Origin: Jiangella asiatica
GTDB taxonomy: Bacteria > Actinomycetota > Actinomycetes > Jiangellales > Jiangellaceae
Reading direction: 5' to 3'
NCBI RefSeq assembly: GCF_004349065.1
Contig: NZ_SMKZ01000002.1
Span: 1 to 64,000, forward strand
Length of the DNA: 64,000 bases
In this document: in pieces, positions 8,000 to 29,771 of the stretch
How positions within the stretch are numbered: position 1 is the first letter of the stretch
How the letters are laid out: every line of letters starts with the position of its first letter
Made by a program: the position numbers and the translations under genes
Notes under the pieces: model-generated
What the model was told of the DNA's origin: nothing
Seen by the model: only the letters and a program-made list of their open reading frames with translations
Databases searched by the model: none

Positions 8000-9484
8000 C
8001 TACGATCGAGACGAGCTGGTCGGCCCTGCGGTGGCCGAGGCGGTGTCCTGGTTCCGTGCCCACCTGTCGTGAGAGTCCTCGCCACCGGGGGAGGCGGGAC
8101 GGTCGTTGGGGTTGGGCGCGGGGATGGCGGCCCGCACCTCCGTCAGCCACGTGTCGAGGGTCCGGGCCAGCCGGCGCGTGTCAGCCGGCCTCTTCTCCGC
8201 GAGGTCCTCCGTCTCCGAGATGTCGTTTCGGAGGTCGTACAGCTCCAGGTGGTCGTCCTCGAAGAAGCGGATCAGCTTGAGGTCGCCCCACCGGACGGCG
8301 GCGCCAGGCGTGCCGCCCTGGTTGCCGTAATGCGGGTAGTGCCAGAAGACCGGACCGCGGTCGAACGTCTCGCCGCTCAGCAGCGGGAGGATGCTGACGC
8401 CATCGGTGTGCTGCTCCGGACGCAGCGGCAGCCCGGCAGCCGCCAGGAGGGTCGGGTAGAGGTCGGGGCTGGTGGTCAGCTCGCCGGTGGTCGTTCCCGG
8501 TGCCACCACGCCGGGCCAGCTCACGATGAGCGGCACGCGAACCCCGCCGTCGTACATCCATCCCTTCCCCTCGGCAAGGGGCGCGTTGCAGGTGGGCGAT
8601 CGCTCCGCCGTCGACAGGCCCCCGTTGTCGGAGGTGAAGATGACGATCGTGTCGTCGAGCTTTCCGCACCGTTCCAGGCCGTCGAGCAGTCGGCCGAGGT
8701 TCCAGTCGAGGTTCTCGATCATCGCCGCGTAGGCCGGATCGGACTGGACGGTCCGGCGCTGCACCCGTAGGTGCCGCAGATGCCAGGGCGGCAGCCGCTC
8801 GCCGGGTTCGAGGGCCTCGACGTCGGCCAGGCCGAGCTCGCGTGCCTTGTCCGCGTACTTGCGGATCAGGTGTTCAGGTGCCTGGATCGGCGTGTGGACG
8901 GCGTAGTGCCAGAGGTTGAGGAAGAACGGGCGGTCGTCAGCTGAGTTGATCAGTGCGATGGCCTCGTCGGTGAGCCGGTCGGTGAGGTACTCGCCGTCGG
9001 GGCCGTCGGTCAGGGTGGGGCATCCGTACGGACTGACGTAGGTGGGCGGGCGCCCCCAGTCGCAGCCGGCCACGTTGACGTCGAAGCCGTGCCGGTCCGG
9101 CCACGTCATGCGCGAGCCGAGGTGCCACTTTCCCACGTGCCAGGTGCGGTATCCACCGTCTCGCAGCGCTCGGGCTAGGGAGATCTCCTGGCTCGGAAGA
9201 CAGTGGTGGTAGGGCACGTCGCACAGACGTCCCACCGCATGGCCGCCGATGTAGTTCGTGACGCCGACGGTGGCCGGGTACTTGCCCGTGAGAACGCTCG
9301 CCCGGGTGGGCGAGCACACCGGAGCCGCCGCGTAGGCGTCGGTGAACGCCATGCCGTTGGTCGCCAAGCGGTCCAGGTTCGGCGTCTCGTAGAACGTCGA
9401 GCCGTAACAGCTCAGATCACGCCAGCCGAGGTCGTCGACGAGGATCAGGACGATGTTCGGCCTCGAGGTGACCGTGTCTGTCAT
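8000..9484 (-). CDS. Type I sulfatase (formylglycine-dependent)
   Basis: A 494-residue sulfatase hydrolysing a sulfate ester, probably on a carbohydrate. ATG 9484 was chosen because the conserved metal-binding start follows at once (RPNIVLILVDDLGWRDLSCY; DD binds Ca2+). The activation motif is CSPTRASVLTG, with Cys57 the residue to be converted to formylglycine and Arg61 its partner. Also present are the His/Lys site GKWHLGS, the HxPxxAP region HTPIQAPEHL and the DNGG metal site (IFTSDNGGLS). No signal peptide is visible, so it should act in the cytoplasm. It is last in the minus-strand run after two sulfatases and GH2, 145 bp behind GH2. The substrate cannot be read from the sequence. Confidence 0.93.
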   Translation of the reverse strand: MTDTVTSRPNIVLILVDDLGWRDLSCYGSTFYETPNLDRLATNGMAFTDAYAAAPVCSPTRASVLTGKYPATVGVTNYIGGHAVGRLCDVPYHHCLPSQEISLARALRDGGYRTWHVGKWHLGSRMTWPDRHGFDVNVAGCDWGRPPTYVSPYGCPTLTDGPDGEYLTDRLTDEAIALINSADDRPFFLNLWHYAVHTPIQAPEHLIRKYADKARELGLADVEALEPGERLPPWHLRHLRVQRRTVQSDPAYAAMIENLDWNLGRLLDGLERCGKLDDTIVIFTSDNGGLSTAERSPTCNAPLAEGKGWMYDGGVRVPLIVSWPGVVAPGTTTGELTTSPDLYPTLLAAAGLPLRPEQHTDGVSILPLLSGETFDRGPVFWHYPHYGNQGGTPGAAVRWGDLKLIRFFEDDHLELYDLRNDISETEDLAEKRPADTRRLARTLDTWLTEVRAAIPAPNPNDRPASPGGEDSHDRWARNQDTASATAGPTSSSRS

Positions 9485-9629
9485 GGACCGTTGCTCCCTA
9501 GCCTCGCCGGCCGCGACGCCTCCTGGACAGCTCGCTCGCCGTGCATGAACACGTTCTACGATCGGCATGCTAACGATGGGGTCGGCCCGCGATCCTGACC
9601 ACGTCCGTTCCCGCAGGGCGGTTGGACGG

Positions 9630-11918
9630 TCATCGCGGTGCGAGCTGCGGGGCGCTCGGAGCGCTCGGAGTGCCGGCAGGGAGCACCTGGATCTCGGCGG
9701 TGGCGGCACCGAGTGCGGTGTGCTCGGCGTGCAGGCGTACGGGCCCTGGCGTCTCCGTGGTTCGCAGCCACACCGCGCCCCCGCCGCCCACCAGCGCGAA
9801 CGGGTTGTCTCCGATGATTCGAGCCGGCCCTTCCACTCTCAGCGAGACCGCGCCGGTGGCGTATGGCCGGCGGTTGCCGAACTCGTCGGTGACGCGCAGA
9901 ACCACCCGGGTGGCGTCGCTTCCGTCCGCGACGAGCGTGGTGTCGTCGGGCTCGACCTGGAACAGCGCGTCCACGCCGCGTCCGCTCAACCGCCGGGTCG
10001 TCACCAGGCGGCCTTCCAGGTACCCCTCGATGCACAGGTCGTGCCAGTCGGGTCCCCACTTGGCGGACAGGGCATCGGTGATGAACGGAGGGTGTGGCAG
10101 GTGGCCGAAGGCCTCGCGAGCTGGCTCTAGGCGAGACACCATCCGATCACCGACGTACAGACGCAGTTCGTCGCAGTTCGAGCAGATGACGGCCAGCCCG
10201 CTCGATCGATGCCCGGCGCGGTCGTCGTACATCGTGTTGTGTGTCTCGACGGCGTGCGGGTGGAACTCCCCGCGCGACCAGTGGAAGGCAGGCTCGAGCA
10301 CGATGGCCTCGGCCGGATCGCACTGTGACCGATACAGTGCGGCGGCGGGCTTGGGGATGCGGAAGATGTCCGACACGCCGTGGTAGCAGACGTGGTCGCC
10401 GGATCCGGCGTCGCCGCGGGTGTTGTAGTCGAACGCGCACCACCCGATGCCCCCGGCGTGCCGGTCGTCGCCGTAGATCTGGTCGAGGACGCGAGCGTGC
10501 CGCAGAACGTGCTCCTGGACCCGGTCCAGGTGATCGGTCTGCTTGGTCGGGAAGGTGTGACCGCCGAACTCGGTGACGAGGTACAGCTGATGGTTGGGTC
10601 GCCGTAGCTCGCCTATGTCGAAGTCGTTGACGGTGTAGACGTCCTCCAGCAGTTCTGAGTCGAAGAAGTTGCGGATTCCACCGGTCTGACGGGAGTCGTC
10701 GAGGGTGCGTGCCAGCTGATTGGTGCGGGTGTAGAAGTCGTGGTGGTCGCGCGACTCGTTGATCCGGACGCCCCAGAGGATCACCGACGGCCGGTTGCGG
10801 TCGCGGCGCACCATCGCTTCCACGTCGCGACAGGCGAGCGCCTGCCACGCCGCGTCGCCGACATGGGACCAACCGGGTATCTCCTCGACCACGAGCAGGC
10901 CGATCTCGTCGCAGCGGTCCAGGAAGTGTGGCGACTGCGGGTAGTGAGACGTCCGGACGACGTTGCACTTGAGCTCGTGCCGGAGGATCTCGGCGTCTCG
11001 TCGCTGCACTCGCCGGGGCATGGCGCCGCCGACGAACGGGAACGTCTGATGTCGATTGAGCCCGCGCAGCTTGAGGCGGCGCCCGTTCAGGAAGAAGCCG
11101 GCCGGCGTGAACCGCGCCTCGCGCAGGCCGATGCGGCGGGTGTGCTCGTCGTCGGACGGGCCGTGCAGCCTGACCACGACGTCGTACAGGCGTGGCCGGT
11201 CGATGTCCCACAGCTCGATGTCTCCGAGGTTCTCGAGCAGCAGGTCCACGGTCGCGGTGCCCCGATCGGAGACCCGCACCTCACGCTGCGACCGCGCCAG
11301 TATCCGGGCACCGTCGCGCAGCTCCGCCTCGATCGAGAGCGGTCCGGGGACCGCGCCGTCCGCGTCGAGCTCGCACGACACTTCGATGGCACGCTCGGCC
11401 TCGAGGACGCGCACCGGCTTGGCGAACACGTCGGCGACGAAAACCTGAGGAACGAGGCGGAGCGTCACGTCGCGGTAGATGCCGCCGAACGTCAGGTAGT
11501 CCATCCGCCCGCCGAACGGCGGGATGTCGGGCCGTTCCGTGGCGTCGACCCGGATGGCGATCACGTTCGGGCGGTCCCGGGCGACCTGAGCGGTCAGCTC
11601 CATGGAGAACGGTGTGTATCCGCCGAGGTGCTCTCCGACGAGAACGCCGTTGCACCAGACGGTGGAGGCGGTCATGGCGCCGTCGACATCGAGGAACACT
11701 CGGCCGGTGAACCCTTCCGGCACCTCGACGGTGCGGCGGTAGACGGAGACGAACTGGTAGGCAGCGCGATCGAAGCCATGCCAGGGAAGGGTCGTGGTGC
11801 TGTGCGGCAGAGTGACGCGCTCCCATCCGGAGTCGTCGAGGTCGGCGGCCTCGTCTCCGGGCGAGGCCGGGGCCGTGTGGCGCCAACCGCGGTCGAGGTC
11901 CAGCAGGTGTCGTGGCAC
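9630..11918 (-). CDS. Glycoside hydrolase family 2 (beta-galactosidase/glucuronidase-like)
   Basis: A 762-residue retaining exo-glycosidase. Domain order: jelly-roll sugar-binding domain (about 1-160, ending in the FGGIYRDVTLRL motif), Ig-like sandwich (about 160-270), TIM barrel (about 275-560) and a C-terminal Ig-like domain with GNRRPYATGAVSLRVEGPA. The acid/base is Glu388 in ILWGVRINES and the nucleophile is Glu450 in LVTEFGGHT. There is no signal peptide, so it is probably cytoplasmic, working on imported oligosaccharides once neighbouring sulfatases have removed sulfate groups. It sits 52 bp behind a sulfatase in the same operon. The sugar specificity (galactose, glucuronate or another) is undetermined. 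Confidence 0.92.
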   Translation of the reverse strand: MPRHLLDLDRGWRHTAPASPGDEAADLDDSGWERVTLPHSTTTLPWHGFDRAAYQFVSVYRRTVEVPEGFTGRVFLDVDGAMTASTVWCNGVLVGEHLGGYTPFSMELTAQVARDRPNVIAIRVDATERPDIPPFGGRMDYLTFGGIYRDVTLRLVPQVFVADVFAKPVRVLEAERAIEVSCELDADGAVPGPLSIEAELRDGARILARSQREVRVSDRGTATVDLLLENLGDIELWDIDRPRLYDVVVRLHGPSDDEHTRRIGLREARFTPAGFFLNGRRLKLRGLNRHQTFPFVGGAMPRRVQRRDAEILRHELKCNVVRTSHYPQSPHFLDRCDEIGLLVVEEIPGWSHVGDAAWQALACRDVEAMVRRDRNRPSVILWGVRINESRDHHDFYTRTNQLARTLDDSRQTGGIRNFFDSELLEDVYTVNDFDIGELRRPNHQLYLVTEFGGHTFPTKQTDHLDRVQEHVLRHARVLDQIYGDDRHAGGIGWCAFDYNTRGDAGSGDHVCYHGVSDIFRIPKPAAALYRSQCDPAEAIVLEPAFHWSRGEFHPHAVETHNTMYDDRAGHRSSGLAVICSNCDELRLYVGDRMVSRLEPAREAFGHLPHPPFITDALSAKWGPDWHDLCIEGYLEGRLVTTRRLSGRGVDALFQVEPDDTTLVADGSDATRVVLRVTDEFGNRRPYATGAVSLRVEGPARIIGDNPFALVGGGGAVWLRTTETPGPVRLHAEHTALGAATAEIQVLPAGTPSAPSAPQLAPR

Positions 11919-11970
11919 GAGTCGATCAGCTCCTGTCGGTGTGGCCCGGATCGGGCCGCAGGTCGGGGGA

Positions 11971-14247
11971 TCAGTCCCGTGGCTCGTACGGCCGTCCCGT
12001 CGCGGGGTCGAGGAGATCCACGACGACCTGTTCGAGCCGGCCGCTGAAGTCGAACGGCCCGTCGGCGTCGGCGCGGACGGGGGACAGCCGGTCGCCGCCG
12101 ATGTCCAGGCCCTGGAAGGCCACGAAGTGCTCGAAGGTCTCGTCGAGGCGCAGGTGCCCCGCTTCGTTCCCGCCGATCAGCAGGGTGGCCGTGCCCGCGG
12201 AGCTGTCGGTGTCCTTGATGAACCGCACGGCCACCTCCGAGGCGCCGAGCGGGACGGGAACGGACGAGCGCAAGATTTTGTGGTCGCCGTAGTAGTTGTA
12301 GTCGTAGACGAGCCGGCCGTCCTCGACCATGAGGCAGTAGCCGCTGTTGACGCTGCCGTGCGCGATGAGCACGCCGTCCGCTGACCGGTCCGGGCGGACG
12401 ATCCGGGCCGAGATCTGAACGGACCGGCCCGCGACCGGGGGCGCCGCGGCGGTGGGGATGTGCTGGACTCCGTCGAGGTAGACGAATCGGTGGCGATCCT
12501 TGGGGGAGTGCGGGCGGAAGTTCGCGTTGGCGCGCTCGGCGAAGCCGCGGTCGTCCAGTGGCAGGACGTTGTTGCGGCGGGCTTCCCGCCACCAGGTGTC
12601 GACCAGCTCGCGAAGCTTGCCGGGCATGGCCGCTGCCAGGTCCTCGGCCTCGGAGAAGTCCTCGGCCGCGTGGTACAGCTCCCACCGGTCGGTGTCGAAG
12701 TCCGCGCCGCGGCGGTGCCAGGCGACGGCCTTCCACCCGTCGCGCCAGATGGCCCGGTGCCCGTCGGTCTCGAAGTACTGCGTGCGCTCAGAGGTCGCGG
12801 CCGACGCGTCGTCCAGCACGGCGCGCATGCTGACGCCGTCGAGCGCTCGCTGCGGCACCCCCCGGTACGTGCGCGGCGCTTCGATGCCGATGAGGTCCAG
12901 GACCGTGGGCACGATGTCGGTGACGTGCTGGAACCCCGAGCGGCGCTCCCCTGCACCCATCCTGTTCGGCAGGCTCATGATCATCGAGGTGCGGATGCCA
13001 CCGGCGTGCGTGTTCTGCTTGTACCGCCGGAGGGGCGTGTTGGCGGCCTGCGCCCAGCCGAGGGGGTAGTTCACGTGCGTGGTGCGCCCGTCGATCTCCT
13101 CGATCCGGGCGAGGTTCTCCGCCAGGGAGGGCAAGCGGCCGTTCTCGTAGTGCGTGGTGTTCAGGACGCCGTGCTCCCCTCCCTCCTGGCTCGCGCCGTT
13201 GTCACCCAGCAGCACCACGATGGTGTCGTCCAGGCGGCCCAGCTCGTCCAGGTAGCTCAGGAGCCGGCCGATCTGGGCGTCGGTGTGCTCGAGGAACCCG
13301 GCATACACCTCCTGGAAGCGTGCCGCGAGTCGCCGTTCGTCCGCGGTCAGCTCGTCCCACGGGCGCACGTCGTCGTTGCGCGGCGGCAGTGCGGTGCCGG
13401 GCGGGATCACTCCGGTCTCGAGCTGCCGCCGGTAGCGCCGTTCCCGGATGACGTCCCAGCCCTCGTCGTAGGCGCCGCGGTACCGTTCGACGAACTCCGC
13501 CGGTGCCTGGAACGGCGTGTGCGTGGCGCCGAACGCGAGGTAGAGGAAGAACGGCTTCTCCGGCGCGATCGATGTCTGGTCGCGGAGGAACTCGCACGAC
13601 TTGTCCACGAGGTCGGCGGTCAGGTGATATCCGTCCTCCGGTGTTCGCGGCGCCGTCGTCTGGTGGTTGTCGTGGTACAGCTCCGGGTAGTAGTGGTCGG
13701 TCAGTGCTTCCATGAACCCGTAGTAGCGCTCGAAGCCCCGCCCCAGTGGCCACTGGTCGTACGGGCCGGCCGCCGTCGTCTGGTCCATGGGCGCGAGATG
13801 CCACTTTCCGACGGCCATCGTGTTGTAGCCCCCGGCCACCAGCATCTCCGCCAGGGTCGCGCAGTCGTGACCGACCCTGCCACGGTAGCCGGGGTAGCCG
13901 TCGTCGACGTGTGACAGATACGCCATGCCGACCGCATGGTGATTGCGGCCGGTCAGCAGGCAGGCCCGCGTCGGTGAGCACAGTGCCGTCGCGTGGAAGT
14001 TGGTGAACTGCACGCCGCGCGCGGCGAGCTCGTCCATCGTCGGCGTGGCGATCTCCGAGCCGTAACTGCCGAGGCTGGAGAACCCGATGTCGTCGAGCAC
14101 GAGGAAGACGACGTTCGGGCGACCGGCCGAGGTCGGGACCGGGGGCCAGGACGGGGTCGAGTCGCGGTACGTCGTGCCGATCGTTGCTTCGCGTGATGCT
14201 TCGCCCGGTCGCTGCCCGGTCGGCCGGTTCGGTTCGGTCACTGCCAT
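11971..14247 (-). CDS. Large arylsulfatase-type sulfatase
   Basis: A 758-residue type I sulfatase. ATG 14247 overlaps the 3' end of the upstream sulfatase gene by 10 bases, which indicates translational coupling; open sequence further upstream is antisense-like and was not used. It has the N-terminal metal motif PNVVFLVLDDIGFSSLGSYG, the activation motif ALCSPTRACLLTG with Cys90, then GKWHLAPMDQ, ATHTPFQAP and LGDNGASQEGG. After the catalytic domain (to about residue 550) come some 200 residues forming a beta-sandwich-like tail (GSVNSGYCLMVEDGRLVYDY) typical of large bacterial arylsulfatases. No signal peptide is visible. It is closely similar in plan to the preceding gene, so the two look like an old tandem duplication. 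Confidence 0.93.
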   Translation of the reverse strand: MAVTEPNRPTGQRPGEASREATIGTTYRDSTPSWPPVPTSAGRPNVVFLVLDDIGFSSLGSYGSEIATPTMDELAARGVQFTNFHATALCSPTRACLLTGRNHHAVGMAYLSHVDDGYPGYRGRVGHDCATLAEMLVAGGYNTMAVGKWHLAPMDQTTAAGPYDQWPLGRGFERYYGFMEALTDHYYPELYHDNHQTTAPRTPEDGYHLTADLVDKSCEFLRDQTSIAPEKPFFLYLAFGATHTPFQAPAEFVERYRGAYDEGWDVIRERRYRRQLETGVIPPGTALPPRNDDVRPWDELTADERRLAARFQEVYAGFLEHTDAQIGRLLSYLDELGRLDDTIVVLLGDNGASQEGGEHGVLNTTHYENGRLPSLAENLARIEEIDGRTTHVNYPLGWAQAANTPLRRYKQNTHAGGIRTSMIMSLPNRMGAGERRSGFQHVTDIVPTVLDLIGIEAPRTYRGVPQRALDGVSMRAVLDDASAATSERTQYFETDGHRAIWRDGWKAVAWHRRGADFDTDRWELYHAAEDFSEAEDLAAAMPGKLRELVDTWWREARRNNVLPLDDRGFAERANANFRPHSPKDRHRFVYLDGVQHIPTAAAPPVAGRSVQISARIVRPDRSADGVLIAHGSVNSGYCLMVEDGRLVYDYNYYGDHKILRSSVPVPLGASEVAVRFIKDTDSSAGTATLLIGGNEAGHLRLDETFEHFVAFQGLDIGGDRLSPVRADADGPFDFSGRLEQVVVDLLDPATGRPYEPRD

Positions 14248-16421
14248 GTCAGCTGGGCCCTCTCGTCGACGTCTGCCTGCTCGTGCACCGGTGGCCCGAG
14301 CTCGACCACGACGTTGTCGAGGGCGCCGGTGAAGGTGAATGGAGCCTCGTACTCGTCGCTGACCGGTGACGGGGCGTTGTGTCCGCACTGGACCGACACG
14401 CACGCGATGCCGGCGGGCACCAGCCGCGGAACAGTGCGGCGGCCGACGGGGCGGCCGTCGATCGACAGGACGGCGTGCGCGCCGGGGCCGGCGGGCTCGA
14501 TGTCGAGCCGGAGGAGCGCTGGCCCGGTGGGCAGGACCTCCGTGGCCGTGAGCACCGTGTGCCGGCCGGCCAGGTTGTAGTCCAGCATCAGCCGGCCGTC
14601 CTTGACGAAGAAGCTGAAACCGAACGCGCGCCGTCCGTACGCCAGCAGTACGCCCTCGTCCGACGGCGAGCACCGCGCGGTGGCGGTGATGCGGAACGCC
14701 CGCTCGGAGAACCTGGGCCCGACGACGTGGTTGAGCAGCCGGGTACCCGGCAGCAGGGTGTAACGGCGCCGGTCCGTGGCGGGGTCGAGCGCCAGTACCC
14801 GCTCGCCCATGCGGTCATCGAGCGGCAGCACCGCATAGCGTTCCGCTTCACGCCACCACAGGTCGGCCAGCTCGCGGGTCCGTTCCGGCTCGGTGCCGGC
14901 CAGGTCGACGGCTTCGGAAAAGTCCTCTTCCAGGTGGTACAGCTCCCAGCGGTCCTCGTCGAACGGCGTCCCGGGCCGATGCGCGGTGACCGCCTTCCAG
15001 CCGTCGGCGTAGATGCCCCGGTGGCCGGCGGTCTCGAAGTACTGGCACCGGGGCTCGGTCGTGGCCTTCGCATCGGTGAGGGCAGGCAGCATCGAGGTGC
15101 CGTGCAGCGGGAGTTGGGCGACACCGCGGTGGGTCCGCGGTGCCGTCGTGCCGGTGAGCTCGAGGATGGTCGGCGCGAGGTCGATCGCATGGTGGAACTT
15201 TGTCCGGATCGGCTGGCTGGTGTCCAGGTGTCCGGGCCAGTGCGCCACCAGCGGCACCCTGACGCCGCCGCCGTGAGTGAACCTCTTGTAGTACCGCGAC
15301 GGAGTGTTGCCGGCCTGTGCCCAGCCGGCCGGATACTGGTTGTGCGTCCGTGGGCCGCCGAGCTCGTCGATGGCGGCCAGCCCGTCGGCCACGGAGTCGT
15401 CGAGGCCGAGGAAGTACCGGTACTCGTTGACGGTGCCGTGTGCTCCGCCCTCGCCGCTGGCACCGTTGTCGGACATGACGATGACGAGCGTGTCGTCCAG
15501 CACCCCGCGCGCTCGCAGGACGTCGACGACGGCACCGACCTGGGCATCGGTGTGCTCCATGAAGCCGGCGAACACCTCCTGCATGCGCGCATAGAGGCGG
15601 CGCTCGTCTTCGCTCAGGTCCGACCACGCCGGAACGCCGGGGTCCGCCGGGGGTAGCCGGGTCCCCGCGGGCACCACTCCGAGGTCGATCTGACGCTGCA
15701 GGACGAGTTCTCGCTCGCGGTCCCACCCATGGTCGAAGGCGCCTCGGTAGCGGTCGATGTAGTCGCGCGGGGCTTGGTGCGGCGCATGGCAGGCCCCGAA
15801 GGCCAGATAGCAGAAGAACGGGTCGTCCGGCCGCGACGTGAGGTGATCGGCGAGGAACTCCTGCGCGCGGGCGGCCAGGTCCTCGCTGACGTGGTAGCCG
15901 GGGCGGTCCGGGGTGTCGACACGGTGCTGGTCGTAGAACAGCTCAGGGTGCCACTGGTCGTCCTCGCCCCAGAGGAAGCCGTAGTACCGGTCGAACCCGC
16001 GTTGAGTCGGCCACTGGTCGAAGGGTCCGGCGGTACTCAGCTGCCCGGGCGGTGTCAGGTGCCATTTCCCGACCGCGTAGCTGCCGTAGTGGCGGCCGTG
16101 CAGCATCTCCGGGATGGTGGCAGCCGCTGGTGACACGTGGCCGCGGTAGGAGGGGAAGCCGGTGTCGAACGCGGCCAGGAAGCCCATGCCGACGGAGTGA
16201 TGGTTGCGGCCGGTGAGCAGGCTGGCCCGGGTCGGCGAACACAGCGCCGGCACATGGAAGTTCGTGAAGCGCAGGCCGGCCGCGGCCAGCGCGTCGATGG
16301 TTGGCGTGGCGATGGAGGCGCCGTAGCAGCCGAACTGGCCGAAGCCGACGTCGTCCAGCAGGACCAGCAGGACGTTGGGCCCCTGACGTGGTTCGCGGGC
16401 GGGCCACGACGGTTCGCTCAT
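14238..16421 (-). CDS. Large arylsulfatase-type sulfatase, first gene of the operon
   Basis: A 727-residue type I sulfatase. Motifs: PNVLLVLLDDVGFGQFGCYG (metal site), ALCSPTRASLLTG (Cys61 is the formylglycine residue), GKWHLTPPGQ, FGACHAPHQAP and VMSDNGASGEGG, plus the long C-terminal beta-sandwich tail (FSFFVKDGRLMLDYNLAGRH). ATG 16421 has a good ribosome site (GAGGAGG, 10 bases upstream). It heads a probable operon with the 11971-14247 sulfatase, GH2 and the 8000-9484 sulfatase. A LacI-type palindrome lies 31-52 bases upstream, just past a TAGACT -10 box, so LacI repression is likely. No export signal. Confidence 0.93.
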   Translation of the reverse strand: MSEPSWPAREPRQGPNVLLVLLDDVGFGQFGCYGASIATPTIDALAAAGLRFTNFHVPALCSPTRASLLTGRNHHSVGMGFLAAFDTGFPSYRGHVSPAAATIPEMLHGRHYGSYAVGKWHLTPPGQLSTAGPFDQWPTQRGFDRYYGFLWGEDDQWHPELFYDQHRVDTPDRPGYHVSEDLAARAQEFLADHLTSRPDDPFFCYLAFGACHAPHQAPRDYIDRYRGAFDHGWDRERELVLQRQIDLGVVPAGTRLPPADPGVPAWSDLSEDERRLYARMQEVFAGFMEHTDAQVGAVVDVLRARGVLDDTLVIVMSDNGASGEGGAHGTVNEYRYFLGLDDSVADGLAAIDELGGPRTHNQYPAGWAQAGNTPSRYYKRFTHGGGVRVPLVAHWPGHLDTSQPIRTKFHHAIDLAPTILELTGTTAPRTHRGVAQLPLHGTSMLPALTDAKATTEPRCQYFETAGHRGIYADGWKAVTAHRPGTPFDEDRWELYHLEEDFSEAVDLAGTEPERTRELADLWWREAERYAVLPLDDRMGERVLALDPATDRRRYTLLPGTRLLNHVVGPRFSERAFRITATARCSPSDEGVLLAYGRRAFGFSFFVKDGRLMLDYNLAGRHTVLTATEVLPTGPALLRLDIEPAGPGAHAVLSIDGRPVGRRTVPRLVPAGIACVSVQCGHNAPSPVSDEYEAPFTFTGALDNVVVELGPPVHEQADVDERAQLTWQ

Positions 16422-16451: not shown

Positions 16452-16485
16452 GGTGGGGAAACGTTTCACCACCAGCGCGAGTCTA
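16452..16485 (-). promoter_or_regulatory. LacI-type operator and -10 box of the sulfatase/GH2 operon
   Basis: A 22-bp near-perfect palindrome (16452-16473) with core GGGGAAACGTTTCACC; on the minus strand it reads GGTGGTGAAACGTTTCCCC. A -10 box TAGACT occupies 16480-16485 on the minus strand, so the operator covers the expected transcription start. The same TAGACT box precedes the lacI operator. The -35 is weak. Confidence 0.7.
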
Positions 16486-18920: not shown

Positions 18921-18938
18921 GTGGTGAAACGTTTGGCC
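18921..18938. promoter_or_regulatory. LacI-type operator between divergent phosphatase genes
   Basis: GTGGTGAAACGTTTGGCC, a near copy of the operator at 16452-16473 and of the two sites near 24.7-24.8 kb. It lies 21 bases before the start of the metallophosphoesterase (minus) and about 80 bases before the histidine phosphatase (plus), so it could control both. A weaker similar stretch (GAACGTTATCGAAACG) follows at about 18950-18965. Confidence 0.7.
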
Positions 18939-19016
18939 GTTGGTAGCTGAACGTTATCGAAACGATCGATTCCCGGCGAGTCGGTCATGCCCGACACCGG
19001 CGAAAGGTGGACATCC

Positions 19017-22027: not shown

Positions 22028-23482
22028 TCACCGGGGATCCTGGTGGTGTGGGACGACGTCGGCCGTGGCGATCATGCGATCCAGCAGCCTGACGCGCAGC
22101 TCGTCGATCGCGCCCGCCGCCGCTTGGACATGGATCAGGTTGCGCTGTTCCGCGGGATCCAGCGTGAGATCGTAGAACTCGTCGTCCTCGTACATCCGGC
22201 GCACGTACTTGTATCGGTCTGTTCTGATCATGGTCGCCTTGCCATGTGCGACGGGGTCCTCGCGCTGCAGGCTCATCCGCGGGTAGTAGAGACCCTCGGG
22301 CTCCTGTGGCGAGGCCAGTTCGGCCGCGTGCGTCTCGCTCTCCCGCCGGCCCCCCTCGCACAGCACGTCCGGGCGGTGCTCGTTCGCGCCGTCGCTGATC
22401 AGTGGGAGGAGCGATCGGCCGAAGTGGTCGTAGTCGCGCTCCAGGCCGGCCAGCTCCTCGATGGTGGCGGTCACATCGACGAGCTCGGTGAGCGCATCGG
22501 TGACGCCGACGCGGCCGGCTCGGTCGCGTGGCGGCTTGATGACCAGGGGGACGCGCGTGAGCGAGTCGTCGAACACGTTCTGGGCCTTCTCCGGCAGCCC
22601 GAAGTCGCCCGCGAAGTCGCCGTGGTCGGCGAGCAGGACGATGGCGGTGTCAGGATAACGACCCGACCGCCGAACGGCCTGTACGACCTCGCCGAACATC
22701 GCATCCGTGCGGGTGCACATGTCGTAGTAGGTGGCCCGCAGCTCCCGCCATCGCTCGGGCGGCCAGTCCTCGAGCCCTTGGCGCCGGGCCAGCTCCGTGA
22801 TCGTCCGAGGCTTGTGGTCGCCGGCCGCCGGGCGAGGCAGCGGATCGGGCACGAGCCGTCGGTCGGTGCTGCCGTACCACGGTGCCGCGACGCCATAGGG
22901 GCAATGCGGGGTGAGCAGTGTCAGCACGACACAGAGCGGTTGGTCGACGGGCCGGTTCAGAATCAGGTCGACGGCCGCGTCGACGTGATGACGATCGTCG
23001 TCGACGTCTAGCTCGTCCGGCAACCGGCCAGCATAGAAAGAGTAGTACCCCGGCACATCGGTGCTCGGCCACCACTCCCGCCAGCGCGCGGCCCACGACA
23101 ACCCCGTCGGGCGCTGCTGGTTCTCGACACGCACGTCGACCGACCCGTCGATGGCGCGCGGCGACAGCATGTCGTTCTTCCCTGCCCACCACACGAAGTA
23201 GCCGGCCTCGCGCAAGCGCCGCAGCAGGTTGGGCTCGTCCTCGCGCAGCAGGTGGTGCTGCGTACGGTGGCCGCGGACGTGTGGGTACCAGCCTGTCAGC
23301 ACCGAGCACCGGCTGGGTACGCAGATCGGGTTCTGGCAGAACGCTCGGGAGAAGGAGACCGCGTCCGACTCCACCAGCCGGTCCACCTGGGGCGTGGCCA
23401 CCACGGGATTGTGGTGGCCCAGCGCGTCGCCGCGCCACTCGTCGGCCACGAAGATGATCAGGTCCGGACGGGAGGTGGTCAC
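22028..23482 (-). CDS. Type I sulfatase translationally coupled to lacI
   Basis: A 484-residue sulfatase. GTG 23482 overlaps the lacI stop as GTGA; longer upstream readings are antisense to the regulator and were rejected. Motifs: RPDLIIFVADEWRGDALGHH (variant DEW metal site), NPICVPSRCSVLTG (Cys54 is the formylglycine residue), AGKNDM where most sulfatases have GKWH, LTPHCPYGVAAP and LLADHGDFAGDFG. The GKND/DEW combination marks a distinct sulfatase subgroup. It is the second gene of the lacI operon and has no export signal. Confidence 0.9.
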   Translation of the reverse strand: MTTSRPDLIIFVADEWRGDALGHHNPVVATPQVDRLVESDAVSFSRAFCQNPICVPSRCSVLTGWYPHVRGHRTQHHLLREDEPNLLRRLREAGYFVWWAGKNDMLSPRAIDGSVDVRVENQQRPTGLSWAARWREWWPSTDVPGYYSFYAGRLPDELDVDDDRHHVDAAVDLILNRPVDQPLCVVLTLLTPHCPYGVAAPWYGSTDRRLVPDPLPRPAAGDHKPRTITELARRQGLEDWPPERWRELRATYYDMCTRTDAMFGEVVQAVRRSGRYPDTAIVLLADHGDFAGDFGLPEKAQNVFDDSLTRVPLVIKPPRDRAGRVGVTDALTELVDVTATIEELAGLERDYDHFGRSLLPLISDGANEHRPDVLCEGGRRESETHAAELASPQEPEGLYYPRMSLQREDPVAHGKATMIRTDRYKYVRRMYEDDEFYDLTLDPAEQRNLIHVQAAAGAIDELRVRLLDRMIATADVVPHHQDPR

Positions 23483-24582
23483 CGGCCGGGACCCCCCGCC
23501 TGGTCCGCGCTGCGGTCCCGGCTGGACGACCTGACGATCAGCTCCCACGGCCGCTCGATGATCCGGCCCGGCTGACCCGGCTCGTCGATCCTCGCGAAGA
23601 GACGTTCGACCGAGGCGTCCGCGGATCGGGTGGGGTCTCCCACCGAGGTGAGGGACGGCTCGATCCGCTCGCCCTCCTCGGTGTTGCCGACACCCATCAC
23701 GGACAGCCGGCCCGGAACGTCGATACCCAGACGATGTGCCGCCCACACCGTGGCGACGGCACCGCGGTCGGTCATCGAGAGGACCGCCTCGGGCAGATCC
23801 GTTCGCAGCAGCCTGGTCGTCACCTCATACATGTCCTCGCGCCGGTTGCTGGTGGTGATCGGCTCCGGGTCGAGCTGGTGCCTGGCGAGGGCTTCCACCG
23901 CGCCGGCCAGCCGCGCGGCATGGTCGGCCATCTGGCGGTGCTGGGCCAGGATGCGGATCTTTTGATGCCCCTGCTCGACCAGGTGATCGACGGCCGCCGC
24001 GAGAGCCGCCTTCTCGCCGTGCCTGACGACGTCGAATCCGTGGGGCCGCATCGTCTCCGAGTGCACGACGAGACTCAGCCCGGCGGCCGCCAGAGCACGG
24101 ATGACTCGTGTCTCCAGGTGCTGGGTGCCGAGCATGATTGCGCCGTCGACCATGCCGGACTGCAACAGCGTCGCGACGCGCCGGCCCGATGCCGTGTCGC
24201 GGAACGGCAGGTGCACGACGCCGTAGTCACGCCGGTCGGAGAGCTCTTCCATCTGCTCGCTGATCGCGTCGACCCACGGTGTCATGGGCCCGTGCCAGAC
24301 CAGGGCCACCAGCTCCGTGCGTTCTTTGCGCAACGCGCGAGCGGTGCGGTTGCGCCGGTAGCCGACCTTCTCCGCGGCGGCGAGGACCTTGCTCCGCGTC
24401 GGCTCCGGAACCCCCGAGCGTCTGTTGGCGCGACCGCTGACCACGTAGGAGACCGTCGTGATCGAGACGCCCGCCAGCTCGGCGACGTCCTTGAGCGTCG
24501 GAGGCCGCCGGGGCTGCGCCGGCTCGGTGGTTTTGATCCTGGTCTCCTTCTCGAGGACGGCCTCAGCAGGGTCCGTGCACAT
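23479..24582 (-). CDS. LacI-family transcriptional repressor, probable regulator of the locus
   Basis: A 367-residue regulator from ATG 24582. Its DNA-binding helix-turn-helix is PTLKDVAELAGVSITTVSYV with the hinge region AAAEKVGYRRNRTARALRK. The periplasmic-binding-protein-like core follows (VDGAIMLGTQHLETRVIRAL, LSVMGVGNTEEGERIEPSLT). An in-frame ATG at 24687 would add 35 poorly protein-like residues; neither start has a strong ribosome site, so the start is uncertain. It heads the operon with two sulfatases and a metallophosphoesterase. A LacI-type palindrome lies over its own start region, and similar sites precede the ABC importer, the sulfatase/GH2 operon and the phosphatases, so autorepression and local control are likely. 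The inducer is unknown. Confidence 0.9.
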   Translation of the reverse strand: MCTDPAEAVLEKETRIKTTEPAQPRRPPTLKDVAELAGVSITTVSYVVSGRANRRSGVPEPTRSKVLAAAEKVGYRRNRTARALRKERTELVALVWHGPMTPWVDAISEQMEELSDRRDYGVVHLPFRDTASGRRVATLLQSGMVDGAIMLGTQHLETRVIRALAAAGLSLVVHSETMRPHGFDVVRHGEKAALAAAVDHLVEQGHQKIRILAQHRQMADHAARLAGAVEALARHQLDPEPITTSNRREDMYEVTTRLLRTDLPEAVLSMTDRGAVATVWAAHRLGIDVPGRLSVMGVGNTEEGERIEPSLTSVGDPTRSADASVERLFARIDEPGQPGRIIERPWELIVRSSSRDRSADQAGGPGR

Positions 24583-24690
24583 TATCTCGCGCTGGGTGGG
24601 CGACCGCCGGATTCGCGACGGTGCTCGTTCCAGCCGTAGGGCGCTGACGAGGACGAAAAGCGCGGCGCTCCCTCGCACCGTCGTCATCGG

Positions 24691-24739
24691 TTGGTTAATC
24701 GTTTGGCCAGAGTCTAGGGGATTCGGGAGGCGAAGTGAA
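24691..24739 (-). promoter_or_regulatory. lacI promoter with overlapping LacI operator
   Basis: On the minus strand, a -35-like TTCACT (24734-24739) and -10 TAGACT (24711-24716) are separated by 17 bases. The operator TTGGTTAATCGTTTGGCCAG (24691-24710) covers the expected start site, a typical autorepression layout. Confidence 0.65.
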
Positions 24740-24777: not shown

Positions 24778-24815
24778 TTGACAACCCCAGCATAGTGGTT
24801 AATCGTTTGGCCCAC
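24778..24815 (+). promoter_or_regulatory. ABC importer promoter with overlapping LacI operator
   Basis: A consensus -35 TTGACA at 24778-24783. The palindrome 24795-24815 (core GTGGTTAATCGTTTGGCC) covers the position where the -10 should be (TAATCG, 16 bases from the -35). It is almost identical to the lacI operator about 90 bases away, so the two may be bridged by one repressor. Confidence 0.7.
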
Positions 24816-24941
24816 AGCTCAACATTTCCGTCCGAGATCCATCCGTCTCCGGATGAGCGGTTCACCTCTCCGATCCCCGCAGTGGTCGCCTCGCGACGAG
24901 TGGGAGAGGGACGTCACCGGCACACCGCGAAGGGGAAAGTC

Positions 24942-26477
24942 ATGAAGGCCACGCCACGGAGTCGGGGCGAGCTGTCCAGGCGACGCCTGCTGGGGATGGG
25001 ATTCGGCCTGGCAGGGCTGGCCGCCGCCGGCTGCCAGGTCAAGGTCGACGACGATGCTGCGCCCCGGCCGGCCGCCACGGTGTCGATACCCGATCCACAG
25101 CTCGAGCTGCCGGACGGGGATCTCACCTTCCGATGGGTCGACAGCGGGTCGCTGAAGGCGCTGTTCAACGAGGCTGTCCTCGAGGCGTACCACGAGAAGC
25201 ACCCCAACGTTACGACCGACTACACCGGCCAGGGCTGGCCGACGGTCAACGACACCGTCACCTTGGGCATCAGGAACGGCACCGCGCCGGACATCTTCGC
25301 CATGCCGCAGTCGGTACCGCCGGCGACCGCGGTGGAGGAAGGCTGGGTACAGCCGATCGACGATCTGATCCCCGACTTCGACGCCTGGCGGGAGCAGTGG
25401 CCGGCGGACGCTCTCGTGCCCGGTGAGCACATCTTCGACGGCAAGGTCTACACGCTTCCGCTGGGAAGCAGCCTCGTGCTCAGCCAGTTGCTGATCTACG
25501 ACGTGGCCGTCCTCGAAAGCGCCGGCGTCGACCCGGAGCGGGACCTGGGCTCGTGGGACCAGATGCGCGCCGCGGCGCGGACGGTGACCCAGCAGGGCGG
25601 TGGGGACGTGTTCGGACTCATCATCCCCGGCGGACAGCGCATCGGCCGGATCGTGATGGAGCTCGCCGTGAGTGCCGGCTGGCGGTCGTCGGAGACCATC
25701 TGGGGCTTCGACTTCAGCACGGGGGAGTACGCCTTCGATGCGCCGGAGATCATGGCGGCGCTGGAGCATCTTCGGGCCTTCGAGGCCGACGGCAGCCTGT
25801 TCCCCGGCTCCTTGACCTTCAAGAACGACGACGTGGTCGGCCGGATGCCGAACGGCGTGGCCGGCATGACGTTCCACGGGAACTACTACGTCGCGGAGTG
25901 GAAGCAGGGCTCGCCCGGGTGGGAGTTCGGGTTCGCCGGACAGCCTCCGCAGGAGGAGGGCGGCGCCGTCTTCGAGCCGTACCAGGCGCTGGGCAACAAC
26001 AACGTCTGGGTCTACGCCGACACGCCGTATCCGACCATAGCGGCCGACCTGCTCTCCTACGTCGGCTCGGTGGAAGGGCAGACCCAGCTGGTGCGGATGA
26101 CCAGTGGCCTGCTCCAGTCGGTCATCCCCGAGGCGAACGAGGCGGCCCAGGGGTTCGACCTGGACCCGCACGGTGTCAAGTCCGCCGAGCTGGCCCGCGA
26201 GCAGATGCGCAAGTGCCCGATCCCGTCGGCGCGCAACCCGGAGGTCTCGGCCGCGCTGGTCGAGGCACAGACGATCAAGCCCGACTTCAACGAGCTGGTC
26301 CAGGGCGTCTTCACCGGCGACATCACCGACGCGGCGAAGGCATTCGCCGAGTACAACGCCACACTGAACCGCTCCCTGGACGAGTCCATCGCCGAAGCCC
26401 GTGCCAAGGGAGCCGACATCTCCCGCGACGACTGGGTCTTCACCGACTGGGACCCCACCCAGGACTACACCGCCTAG
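24942..26477 (+). CDS. Carbohydrate ABC transporter substrate-binding lipoprotein
   Basis: A 511-residue extracellular solute-binding protein (family 1). ATG 24942 was chosen: AAGGGGAAAG precedes it and a Tat-lipoprotein signal follows (RRRLLGMGFGLAGLAAAGC, lipobox AAGC), whereas the longer reading starts upstream of the promoter and operator. The mature protein shows the usual bilobal pattern: LTFRWVDSGSL, APDIFAMPQSVPPATAVEEG, and the Asn/Gly-rich NGVAGMTFHGNYYVAEW. It is first in the operon with two permeases (18 bp to the next gene). It captures the oligosaccharide that the sulfatases and GH2 are inferred to process. Confidence 0.92.
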   Translation: MKATPRSRGELSRRRLLGMGFGLAGLAAAGCQVKVDDDAAPRPAATVSIPDPQLELPDGDLTFRWVDSGSLKALFNEAVLEAYHEKHPNVTTDYTGQGWPTVNDTVTLGIRNGTAPDIFAMPQSVPPATAVEEGWVQPIDDLIPDFDAWREQWPADALVPGEHIFDGKVYTLPLGSSLVLSQLLIYDVAVLESAGVDPERDLGSWDQMRAAARTVTQQGGGDVFGLIIPGGQRIGRIVMELAVSAGWRSSETIWGFDFSTGEYAFDAPEIMAALEHLRAFEADGSLFPGSLTFKNDDVVGRMPNGVAGMTFHGNYYVAEWKQGSPGWEFGFAGQPPQEEGGAVFEPYQALGNNNVWVYADTPYPTIAADLLSYVGSVEGQTQLVRMTSGLLQSVIPEANEAAQGFDLDPHGVKSAELAREQMRKCPIPSARNPEVSAALVEAQTIKPDFNELVQGVFTGDITDAAKAFAEYNATLNRSLDESIAEARAKGADISRDDWVFTDWDPTQDYTA

Positions 26478-26495
26478 GAGATACGAGGCCGATCC

Positions 26496-27452
26496 GTGTC
26501 CGTCACCCAGCCACGCCGATCCAGCCGGGACTGGAGCCGCTTCGCCACGCCCGCGTGGTGCTACGCCTTCATGCTGCCCGCGCTGGTGCTGGCCGCGTTG
26601 TTCACCTTCTACCCGATGGTCATGTCGTGGGTGTACTCGACCGTCGACTGGAACGGCTTCTCGTCCGACATCGAGTTCGTCGGCCTGGCCAACTACCGCG
26701 AGCTGATGAGTGACGGACTGTTCTGGGACGCGTTCGGGCGATCACTGATCTTCGTCCTGGTGGGCACCCCGTTGCGGGTTATCGGAGCGCTCCTCGTCGC
26801 GATCGTGCTCAACCAGCAGGCGCTCAAGCTGAGCCCCGCGTTCCGGACGATGTTCTTCATGCCCGTCGTGACGACGGCGGCGATCGTCGGCATCGTCATG
26901 ACCTTCATCTTCGGTCCCTACGGCGGGCCGTTGAACGAGGTTCTCGTGAGCCTGGACGTGGTCGACGCGCCGGTCGACTTCCTCGGCGACAGCGACACCG
27001 CCATCTGGGCCGTGCTGCTGACCCACACATGGAAGAACTTCGGCATCACCATGATCTACTGGCTGGCCGCCCTGCAGACCGTTCCGCAGAGCTACTACGA
27101 GGCAGCCAAGGTCGACGGCGCCGGCGCATTCGCCCTGCTCCGCCACATCACGCTGCCCGTGTTGCTGCCCTTCGCCGTGGTGATCATCGTGCTGACGGCG
27201 AACGAGAACCTGCACGCGTTCGCGCTCGTGCAGGCCATGACCGCGGGCGGGCCCTTCTTCAGTACCCAGGTGATCGAGGTGTACATCTACCAGACCGCGT
27301 TCGCGGCCGACGCCACCGGCGGGGGCGTGCCACGGCTGGGCTACGCCTCGGCGGCCGGCTGCTTCTTCGGCACGGCCGCGCTCGTCCTCGCCCTGATCCA
27401 GGGCATCGCGGTCCGCCAGACATCCCGTATGCGCAAGCAGCTGAAGGCGTGA
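26496..27452 (+). CDS. Carbohydrate ABC transporter permease (MalF/UgpA-like)
   Basis: A 318-residue inner-membrane permease with a GTG start at 26496 and a short GAGATACGAGG region upstream. Six hydrophobic segments are visible, starting with AWCYAFMLPALVLAALFTFY. The EAA loop YYEAAKVDGAGAFALLRHITLP (about residues 203-224) couples to the ATPase. The partner permease follows 6 bp later. No ATP-binding gene is present; in actinomycetes such importers usually share a chromosomal MsiK-type ATPase, which would lie elsewhere. Confidence 0.92.
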   Translation: MSVTQPRRSSRDWSRFATPAWCYAFMLPALVLAALFTFYPMVMSWVYSTVDWNGFSSDIEFVGLANYRELMSDGLFWDAFGRSLIFVLVGTPLRVIGALLVAIVLNQQALKLSPAFRTMFFMPVVTTAAIVGIVMTFIFGPYGGPLNEVLVSLDVVDAPVDFLGDSDTAIWAVLLTHTWKNFGITMIYWLAALQTVPQSYYEAAKVDGAGAFALLRHITLPVLLPFAVVIIVLTANENLHAFALVQAMTAGGPFFSTQVIEVYIYQTAFAADATGGGVPRLGYASAAGCFFGTAALVLALIQGIAVRQTSRMRKQLKA

Positions 27453-27458
27453 GAGCCG

Positions 27459-28388
27459 ATGACATCGACCAGTGAGGCCGGCCCGTCCATGGTGGACGAT
27501 CAGACGGCGACGATGCTTGGCCGGCGACGTGCTGGCCGGCGGCGAGGCCGTGGCCGGCGCCGCCGGAGCAACGTGGTCCGCGCCACCATCCTCAGTGTCG
27601 TTCTCGTGCCGATCTGTCTCGTGTGGATCTACCCGTTCATCTGGATGGTGTCGGCTTCGCTGAAGACCAACGCCGAAGTCTTCAGCGGTCTCGGGCTGTT
27701 CACCGACGTCGTCCGGCTGGACAACTACGTGCGCGCCTGGAACGAGGCCAACGTCGGGCGCTACTTCTTCAACAGCGTGTTCGTGACGGTCTTCTCCGTC
27801 CTGATCGCCGTCACCGCCACCTCGATGATCGGGTACGTGCTCGGCCGATACCGGTTCCGGGGCAAGAAGGTGATCATCGGGATCTTTGCCGCCGCGATCT
27901 TCCTGCCCGAGGGGTACACGATCATCCCGGTCTTCGACCTGATCTCCAAGCTCGGGCTGACCGGCTCGCTCTGGGGAGTCACCCTGGCCGAGGCCGGTGG
28001 CGCTCACGTCGTGATCATCCTGCTGTTCGCGGGGTTCTTCGCCCAGCTGCCGGGCGAGTTGGAGGAGGCGGCGCGGATCGACGGCGCCGGCTTCCTGCGG
28101 ATCTTCGCCAGCGTCTACCTCCCATTGGCGAAACCGGTCATCGCCACCGCCGTGATCCTGCAGTTCATGCACAGCTGGAACGACTTCCTGCTGCCTCTGG
28201 TGCTCACCTTGTCGCAACCGGACCTGCGCACGCTCGCCGTCGGCATCTACGCGTTCAAGGGCGAGCACCTCACCGACTGGTCCGGGATGGCCGCGGCGTC
28301 GACCATCGCCCTCCTGCCGATCATCCTGCTGTTCTTCTTCCTCCAGCGCTACTTCGTCGAGTCCGTCGCCGGCGCCATGAAGGGATGA
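27459..28388 (+). CDS. Carbohydrate ABC transporter permease (MalG/UgpE-like)
   Basis: A 309-residue permease. An Arg-rich N-terminal tail (about 20-45) is followed by the first membrane helix (VVLVPICLVWIYPFIWMVSA) and TNAEVFSGLG. The EAA loop is ELEEAARIDGAGFLRIFASV (about 200-220), and the C-terminus ends QRYFVESVAGAMKG, the MalG-type ending. It completes the importer and is followed after 3 bp by the PLD-like gene, so the latter belongs to the same transcript. Confidence 0.92.
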   Translation: MTSTSEAGPSMVDDQTATMLGRRRAGRRRGRGRRRRSNVVRATILSVVLVPICLVWIYPFIWMVSASLKTNAEVFSGLGLFTDVVRLDNYVRAWNEANVGRYFFNSVFVTVFSVLIAVTATSMIGYVLGRYRFRGKKVIIGIFAAAIFLPEGYTIIPVFDLISKLGLTGSLWGVTLAEAGGAHVVIILLFAGFFAQLPGELEEAARIDGAGFLRIFASVYLPLAKPVIATAVILQFMHSWNDFLLPLVLTLSQPDLRTLAVGIYAFKGEHLTDWSGMAAASTIALLPIILLFFFLQRYFVESVAGAMKG

Positions 28389-28391
28389 GTA

Positions 28392-29771
28392 ATGGGTGGA
28401 ATCATGCAACGCGGAACCGGCACGTCCCTGAGCGCGGCCGCGCGCCTGGCCGCGCTCGCCTCGACGCTCGTCCTGGTGAGCCTCGCCGCACCGGCGAACG
28501 CCGCCCCAGTCGGGTCATTGCCGCCGATCACCGATCCGGCGCCGTTCGGCTGCTTGCCGGCGACACCCGGCGACACCGTCGGCGGCCGGTACCTGGTGTG
28601 CACCAACGACCCCAGCTCCAGCGACCCGGCGCAGCGCGAGCCGTACCTCGAGGAGCTGACCCGGCTGACCGAGCTGGCCGTCGCCGGCGACCAGATCCAC
28701 ATCGCGATGTACAACTGGTGGTACCGGAAGGTGGACCAGCCCACCTACGACTACAGCGAGATGTACGACTTCACCCACGCGCTCATCGACGCCGCCGACC
28801 GCGGCGTGGGTGTGCACATCGCGCTCGACGAGCACTCCGACCCCGACCACTACGCCGACATCGACGTGCCCGGCCTCGCCCAGCCGTGGGACGAGCTCTC
28901 AGTAGCCGCGAACGTCGATTTCGTCTCGTGCGGGGAGACGACCGCGACCGACTCGCTGTGCCTGCAGACGCCCGGCAACGACTCCGCCATCCAGCACAAC
29001 AAGCTCTTCCTCTTCAGGCTCGGCGGCACCAAGCACGTTCTCGTGTCGTCGGCGAACCTCGGCGCCCCGGGGATGGGCGACCAGTACCAGAACCTCGTCG
29101 GCATCCGTGACGACGTCCGGCTCTACGACTTCTTCGCCGACTACTACCGGCGCCTGGTCGACAACGACTGGGACGGCTGGACCACCGCGGCGGACCGGCG
29201 CTCGAACGGCGACGCGAACCCCTTCACCGGCGTGGTCGAGACACGGGGTTACGTCTACCCGCATCCCAAGCCGGAAGACACGGTCGCCAACATTCTCGGC
29301 AAGGTGCAGAGCTGCCCGTCCTCGGGCGATCGGAAGATATGGCTGGCCGAGCCCTCCATCAAGAACAGCCGGCTGACCGCGAACGACAACCAGCTGCTCG
29401 ACCTGCTGACCAGCCTCGTGAATCTGGGATGTGGTGTCAAGATCATCACCAAGTCGGTGGACGACCCGGCCGACCCCGACGACGTGTTCTCGACCTTGAC
29501 CAGCACGGGTGCGGAGGTGGTGACGGTGTCGTGCCTGCACAGCAAGTACATCATCGTCGACGCGGTGAGCAACGGCATGAACGGCGGCGATCCAGGCAGC
29601 CGTGAGTACGTGTGGACCGGGTCGAGCAACCTGGGGCCTGGGTCGGCGTGGAGCTCGGCCAACAGCAACGTCTGGGTCGAGCAACACGACGTCGTGCGCG
29701 CGTATGTCTCGAACTTCACCGCGATCTGGAACCGCAACTACGCCGGGGAACCCGACCCGTCCTGCACGTAG
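28392..29771 (+). CDS. Secreted phospholipase-D-like (HKD) protein
   Basis: A 459-residue exported protein with a Sec-type signal peptide (LAALASTLVLVSLAAPANA, cleavage near residue 38). Two PLD half-motifs are seen: QHNKLFLF in the first domain (H-x-K, without the usual downstream Asp) and LHSKYIIVD in the second (complete H-x-K-x4-D). Eight or so cysteines suggest disulfides outside the cell. ATG 28392 or 28404 could start it. It is last in the ABC importer operon (3-bp spacing). PLD-family enzymes cut phosphodiesters, so a phosphodiester-bearing substrate such as a glycerophosphoryl-glycan or teichoic-type polymer is possible but unproven. Confidence 0.85.
   Translation: MGGIMQRGTGTSLSAAARLAALASTLVLVSLAAPANAAPVGSLPPITDPAPFGCLPATPGDTVGGRYLVCTNDPSSSDPAQREPYLEELTRLTELAVAGDQIHIAMYNWWYRKVDQPTYDYSEMYDFTHALIDAADRGVGVHIALDEHSDPDHYADIDVPGLAQPWDELSVAANVDFVSCGETTATDSLCLQTPGNDSAIQHNKLFLFRLGGTKHVLVSSANLGAPGMGDQYQNLVGIRDDVRLYDFFADYYRRLVDNDWDGWTTAADRRSNGDANPFTGVVETRGYVYPHPKPEDTVANILGKVQSCPSSGDRKIWLAEPSIKNSRLTANDNQLLDLLTSLVNLGCGVKIITKSVDDPADPDDVFSTLTSTGAEVVTVSCLHSKYIIVDAVSNGMNGGDPGSREYVWTGSSNLGPGSAWSSANSNVWVEQHDVVRAYVSNFTAIWNRNYAGEPDPSCT

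Follow-up and report, generated by a model that had tools for sequence, protein, structure and literature searches.

A putative LacI-controlled sulfatase and β-galactosidase-like gene cluster in Jiangella asiatica

Gene content and shared operator-like sites

The window analyzed here spans the initial 64 kb of contig C57 (NZ_SMKZ01000002.1, 272 kb) of the Jiangella asiatica assembly (7.03 Mb, 134 contigs), and coordinates given without a contig are positions within it. Between 8000 and 29771 it contains five formylglycine-type sulfatase genes (S1–S5), a GH2 gene, three phosphatase genes, a LacI gene and the genes of a sugar ATP-binding cassette (ABC) importer. The genes probably form a private LacI regulon through which a sulfated oligosaccharide or glycoside that contains galactose would be imported and then desulfated in the cytosol. 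Pfam places PF00884 above cut-off in five open reading frames (ORFs) and GH2 domains in 9630–11918; the other ORFs give two metallophosphoesterases, one His_Phos_1, LacI, SBP_bac_1 and two BPD_transp_1. These matches confirm the gene content claimed for the 22 kb by a first-pass annotation, although that inventory overlooked a secreted PLD-like gene and the Tat export of one phosphatase.

Two units lie on the minus strand. The first reads S3 (14238–16421), S2 (11971–14247), GH2 (9630–11918) and S1 (8000–9484); the second is headed by the gene of the LacI-family repressor (23479–24687), followed by S5 (22028–23482), S4 (20566–21996) and a leaderless, cytosolic metallophosphoesterase (19718–20569). 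The importer unit, on the plus strand, comprises a sugar-type solute-binding lipoprotein (SBP; SBP_bac_1, 24942–26477), ABC permeases 1 (26496–27452) and 2 (27459–28388), and the secreted PLD-like protein (28404–29771). Between the minus-strand units lie the gene of the exported metallophosphoesterase (16678–18900, minus strand), which carries a Tat leader and a PQQ/BamB-like propeller, and a divergent gene assigned by Pfam to the histidine-phosphatase family (18987–19721, plus strand). Neighboring genes overlap at LacI/S5, S4/metallophosphoesterase and S3/S2, and in several ORFs the start codon was set later than the open frame (S1, 9484; S2, 14247; S5, 23482; SBP, 24942). A tRNA-Asp called by ARAGORN at 19978–20080 (plus strand) spans 103 bases inside the minus-strand metallophosphoesterase gene and is probably false.

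Reading of the intergenic gaps revealed four near-palindromic, LacI-type operator-like copies of the pattern GGTKAAWCGTTTSRCC. They occupy 16455–16470, 34 bases ahead of S3 and its unit; 18923–18938, 23 bases ahead of the exported metallophosphoesterase gene and between it and the histidine phosphatase gene; 24693–24708, 6 bases ahead of the LacI gene; and 24797–24812, 130 bases ahead of the SBP and the other importer genes. The pattern was built from these sites, so their fit is by construction, while its rarity elsewhere is not. At up to three mismatches the window holds ten matches against 2.95 expected, a number reached in none of 100 shuffles; six of the ten represent the four sites, read on one strand or on both, and the other four, with three mismatches, are at chance level. 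Across the whole assembly, 21 matches are found at up to two mismatches (reversed control pattern: four), of which those at 0–1 mismatch are the four cluster sites only and the remainder have two. Since four shared sites precede four units, with none elsewhere in the assembly at 0–1 mismatch, the cluster looks like one private regulon of a single LacI repressor, whose binding is predicted from sequence. The sites tie together the five sulfatase genes, GH2, the importer, the PLD-like gene and two metallophosphoesterases, and the one before the LacI gene fits autoregulation. The combination that defines a glycan locus, a regulator, a transporter and a carbohydrate-active enzyme under common control, is present, with common control suggested by the shared sites; the same sites support the annotated view of one functional glycan-use unit.

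A β-helix protein gene at 3765–5672, with weak partial similarity to alginate C5-epimerases, was left out of the cluster; no operator-like site (0–2 mismatches) lies left of 16455 in the window.

The GH2 enzyme and sulfatases S1–S4

The leaderless GH2 protein matches the β-D-galactosidase 5euv/5ldr, presumably from a Paracoccus, with 593 bits over 723 residues, followed by the next solved protein at 168 bits. It has GH2 domains and a conserved Glu pair (Glu388 and Glu450, which we take to be catalytic) that is shared with a relative in Haloactinopolyspora alba, and with a β-galactosidase as nearest solved protein it is predicted to have a similar activity. Against the NCBIfam model GalA it scores 268.6 bits (cut-off 900).

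S1 (CSPTR57) aligns over nearly its full length with 6UST (564 bits) and 9FO1 (458 bits), and shares with both the formylglycine motif, GKWH, HTP, DNG and an Asn-Gln pair; it differs from them at a pocket Trp, considered below. The two structures, HhSulf and AMOR_S1_16A, respectively, belong to S1_16, in which 4S-Gal/GalNAc and 6S-GalNAc activities occur (PMC11760155; here and below, statements from the literature are limited to excerpts of the papers cited). By its best full-length similarity S1 is a predicted S1_16 member. The glycan link proposed for the cluster is upheld for S1 and GH2 by these nearest solved relatives.

According to the excerpted source, the best match of S1, 6UST, acts as a GalNAc-6-sulfatase in an organism that uses chondroitin, and the cluster might instead be an accessory glycosaminoglycan locus that finishes sulfated oligosaccharides from the genome's PL8 lyases. 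Seven matches to PF02278 (PL8 lyase) are indeed present in the genome, on C62, C22, C109, C73 and, partially, C57. However, Pfam finds no unsaturated glucuronyl hydrolase, hexosaminidase or lyase in the cluster, and the closeness of GH2 to a β-galactosidase points away from glycosaminoglycans; this alternative is considered highly improbable.

S2 (CSPTR90, GKWH) and S3 (CSPTR61, GKWH) are 48% identical and among solved proteins both best match PAS (1HDH; 288 bits to S2, 276 to S3) and BT4683 (7ALL; 279 and 247 bits). They match the catalytic part of these enzymes and extend approximately 200 C-terminal residues past the PAS match. BT4683 is an S1_4 endo Gal-3-sulfatase (PMC10154612) that binds Gal O2 through a Glu and an Arg, and PAS is an arylsulfatase listed in S1_4 (sources for S1_4: PMC5066984, PMC10154612, PMC12421950); by best similarity to the two, S2 and S3 are predicted S1_4 members. 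S4 has CAPAR59, TDQQ and GKWH. Choline sulfatase was rejected as an assignment, the five proteins scoring 79–148 bits against NCBIfam TIGR03417, for a cut-off of 433. The active-site motifs listed in the first-pass annotation are as written (DDxG/GKWH in three proteins, TDQQ/GKWH and ADEW/GKND), but its conclusion that three styles indicate several sulfate positions is not supported in that form: GKND reflects the loss of a His, and S2 and S3 fall in a subfamily with both Gal-3-sulfatase and arylsulfatases.

With PAS, listed as an S1_4 arylsulfatase, as the best solved match of S2 and S3, a sulfur-scavenging locus has to be considered, in which arylsulfatase-type enzymes would release sulfate from a range of organic sulfates and GH2 would act on glycoside conjugates, for example sulfated aryl glycosides. 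It is consistent with this that a 54% identical S3 relative in the genome follows tripartite tricarboxylate transporter-like genes, not sugar genes. LacI control in combination with a sugar-type SBP and permeases argues against scavenging, as do the unit that GH2 shares with three sulfatases and the closeness of S1 to glycan sulfatases, and the proposal is judged rather unlikely. On C68 (L048, 3409–8779) the S3 relative, S1_4-type, is preceded by a set similar to that at 37813–40860 of the window; the latter genes resemble a tripartite tricarboxylate transporter set, a family that we assume from their N-termini.

S5, the importer and the phosphoesterases

All five proteins, S5 included, have PF00884 and a C-x-P-x-R motif (CSPTR in three, CAPAR and CVPSR). 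S5 (CVPSR54, ADEW) retains the formylglycine motif and later His, Asp-His and Glu-Lys residues, but lacks the sulfate-binding Lys-x-His pair: S1–S4 all have GKWH, and S5 has GKND at 101–104 (Lys102-Asn-Asp104). The comparison rests on 6pt4 and 4upl, with whose GKWH and GKTH, respectively, this stretch aligns. All nine aligned sequences (S5 and eight relatives) carry Asp at the His position; the Lys persists in the two closest relatives (53 and 51%), whereas the remaining six (38–41%) have Arg and one inserted residue. Among 54 motif-picked sulfatase frames of the genome, 44 have GKxH and S5 alone has GKND; the other nine comprise one GKWG, one GKVL and seven without GKxx in the stretch examined. 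In choline sulfatase, to which S5 was not aligned, kcat/Km is 4.8e3 for the wild type, 2.6 for H104A and <7.5e-5 for K102L; of 11 active-site residues of that enzyme, two are different in the phosphonate hydrolase RlPMH (PMC5870055). Because Asp replaces the sulfate-binding His, sulfatase activity of S5 is doubtful, and the 'five sulfatases' are safest counted as four plus one divergent relative. The two RlPMH differences are presumably at the Lys and His positions. An AlphaFold model of S5 had a mean pLDDT of 60.

The best NCBIfam model for permease 1 is UgpA, far below cut-off, and permease 2 is GlcU/UgpE-like, also below cut-off. No ABC ATPase is present among the cluster ORFs scanned with Pfam; a shared ATPase encoded elsewhere is usual in actinomycetes. 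The PLD-like gene begins 15 bases past permease 2 as the fourth gene of the unit, and its product has two PLDc_2 stretches.

A further alternative takes as substrate a galactolipid that bears both phosphate and sulfate, or a phosphodiester-linked sulfoglycan: the PLD-like protein and the exported phosphoesterase would release a sulfated head group for the importer, S5 would open the phosphodiester, and S1–S4 and GH2 would finish the degradation. The PLD-like gene directly follows the permeases, three of the four regions led by an operator contain phosphoesterase-type genes (PLD counted), and both the UgpA match, though far below cut-off, and the loss of the His in S5 fit such a scheme. However, neither a lipase nor another glycosidase is found in the cluster by Pfam, no solved protein matches the PLD-like one at E ≤ 1, the first HxK motif of the latter lacks the Asp, and UgpA/UgpE models are also general neighbors of sugar permeases, so that the scheme appears quite unlikely. 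It is tempting to speculate, as a very unlikely case, that the S5 clade swapped its sulfate-binding His for Asp (and mostly its Lys for Arg) and now cleaves a phosphodiester or other ester; in concert with the exported phosphoesterase and the PLD-like protein, S5 would then enable the locus to break down a substrate in which galactose sulfates and phosphate diesters occur together, for example a sulfated galactolipid head group.

Leaderless sulfatases, related loci and interpretation

After start correction, no hydrophobic leader is found on any of the five sulfatases or GH2 by a simple hydrophobicity rule and inspection of N-termini by eye, rather than SignalP, in agreement with the first-pass annotation. 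Four of the sulfatases start close to the domain, and S2 has a polar lead-in of approximately 40 residues. The lack of a leader is not peculiar to the locus: about 61 of 65 sulfatase domains of the genome are leaderless, and intracellular desulfation would thus be a habit of the organism and not a mark of the locus. The 68 PF00884 matches reduce to 65 domains after joining three split genes; the N-termini were read in 69 frames, which, minus four truncated fragments and one duplicate and plus a second domain in L174, likewise make 65. Six carried a hydrophobic flag: L019, L022, L184 and L205 have a Tat-like leader, and L168 and L203, in which the hydrophobic stretch lies upstream of the nearest start codons or coincides with them, were counted leaderless by eye. 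PF00884 matches number 5–29 in 11 congeners (5.6–7.9 Mb) and 0–44 in 10 other Jiangellaceae, with 43 candidates scored for J. asiatica and for G020.

The sulfatases of the genome are spread over contigs C22, C68, C83, C61, C44, C36 and others (L003–L022, L167–L205), and share a contig with the PL8 matches on C62, C22 and C73 (PL8 matches L208–L211: C62, C22, C109 and C73). L174 (C29:113102–115972) has two sulfatase domains in one 1101-residue open frame, either a fusion or two in-frame genes. A leaderless subgroup (L005, L193, L200, L202 and L203) carries (H/T)-x-H-D close to the N-terminus; the stretch examined contains no GKxx.

The annotated absence of a formylglycine-generating enzyme (FGE) gene from the window is correct, a PF03781 search of the assembly giving matches on C95 and C33 only. 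The C95 match is strong (281 bits) and reads CHESYC, the cysteines of which we take to be the FGE active-site pair; the C33 match is partial (77 bits). An FGE is found at E ≤ 1e-40 in 18 of 23 genomes, J. asiatica included; congener G011 has none at this threshold despite 10 sulfatase matches.

A scan of named genomes for GH2 relatives yielded 49 loci, 15 of them at 40% identity or more (two on one contig). Window-like sulfatases in their flanks were sought by tblastn (E ≤ 1e-8), with many flanks ending at contig ends; they occur at 17 of the 34 less similar loci, 15 of these 17 being Verrucomicrobia-group records. The best relative by coverage, from H. alba DSM 45211 (48%), is a Tat-led protein with a 61% identical S3 relative approximately 4–5 kb away. 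SBP relatives are found in eight of 392 other genomes of the class (E ≤ 1e-30, best 36%, three candidates at most scored per genome), and a 38% paralog exists in J. asiatica itself. A sulfatase gene lies within approximately 10 kb of the SBP relative in four of six loci read (L144, L146/L147, L149 and L150, not L145 or L148; L151, which stops at a contig end, is excluded), and within 5 kb by coordinates for the matches G018:C2, G019:C19 and G020:C6. S5 relatives occur in nine of the 392 genomes (E ≤ 1e-40, best 54%, at most four candidates per genome scored); in two congeners they lie near genes for permease-like (28–30% to those of the window), golvesin- and M14-domain proteins. The whole gene set occurs in none of the loci read, a subset of the matches without L156–L158.

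The preferred scheme, import of a still-sulfated compound followed by cytosolic desulfation, has precedents in other bacteria. The GlcNAc-6-sulfate cluster of Bifidobacterium breve UCC2003 is likewise an actinomycete system for sulfated-sugar use with an intracellular sulfatase, but serves sulfated GlcNAc, whereas the present cluster has five sulfatase-family genes, GH2 and phosphoesterases (PMC7326374). SulA1 of a marine Arthrobacter, a GalNAc-4-sulfatase without signal peptide, shares the actinomycete origin, lack of a leader and a galacto sugar; its gene adjoins a chondroitin lyase gene, in contrast to the lyase-free LacI regulon with importer seen here (PMC10972148). The putative glycosaminoglycan loci (gpPULs) of gut Firmicutes similarly combine a regulator, an ABC or phosphotransferase-system transporter and enzymes in one cluster, but carry PL8 lyases, and none had been characterized as of the review excerpted (PMC9067506). 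Literature searches aimed at actinobacterial sulfatase loci gave no hit among open-license papers, where absence says little.

In this scheme, the lipoprotein-dependent importer would take up the still-sulfated compound, and a breakdown product would bind LacI and release the four promoters, as the operators suggest. In favor of this are the leaderless enzymes encoded beside an importer and the SBP relatives that lie close to sulfatase genes. The FGE encoded on another contig would activate S1–S4, of which S1 (S1_16-like), S2 and S3 (S1_4-like) and S4 would remove sulfates in the cytosol, and the GH2 enzyme would release galactose. The weakest step lies outside the cell, where the phosphoesterase with the Tat leader and the PLD-like protein probably act on the substrate in a phosphate-bearing form or on its carrier. 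S5 is a divergent relative of uncertain activity. Substrate, transport, repressor binding and step order are all inferred. For carrageenan as a substrate, the only two GH16 (PF00722) matches in the genome, of 69 and 42 bits, speak neither for nor against.

Several points weigh against this scheme. S1 has Tyr78 where AMOR_S1_16A has Trp79 in its pocket, a Trp that is present in all four S1_16 structures compared (PMC11760155) and essential in the B. theta S1_16 enzymes, yet occurs in only 37% of S1_16 sequences (PMC10154612). Because of this low frequency, Tyr78 lowers the 4S-Gal/GalNAc assignment of S1 more than its S1_16 membership. As S1_4 also contains plain arylsulfatases, S2 and S3 need not act on galactose, and S4 and S5 are without a close solved relative (best 131 and 110 bits). 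A single glycosidase is little for a polysaccharide, and of the 15 GH2 loci at 40% identity or more, only that of H. alba (L085) shows a window-like sulfatase within the flanking sequence retrieved. Finally, sulfate and galactose alone leave the phosphoesterases, one of them exported, and the secreted PLD-like protein unaccounted for. The reading favored here is nevertheless a private LacI regulon serving a sulfated galactose-containing compound.

The unusual points are the large leaderless sulfatase set and the odd S5. S5 and its relatives offer a test of a formylglycine enzyme without the His of the Lys-x-His pair. With 65 sulfatase domains, about 61 of them leaderless, and PL8 lyases, the genome suggests a sulfated-glycan specialist. 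If the proposed pathway is correct, the cluster would be a compact, testable model of actinomycete intracellular desulfation, in which a single repressor, four operator-like sites and one importer go with a defined set of enzymes.

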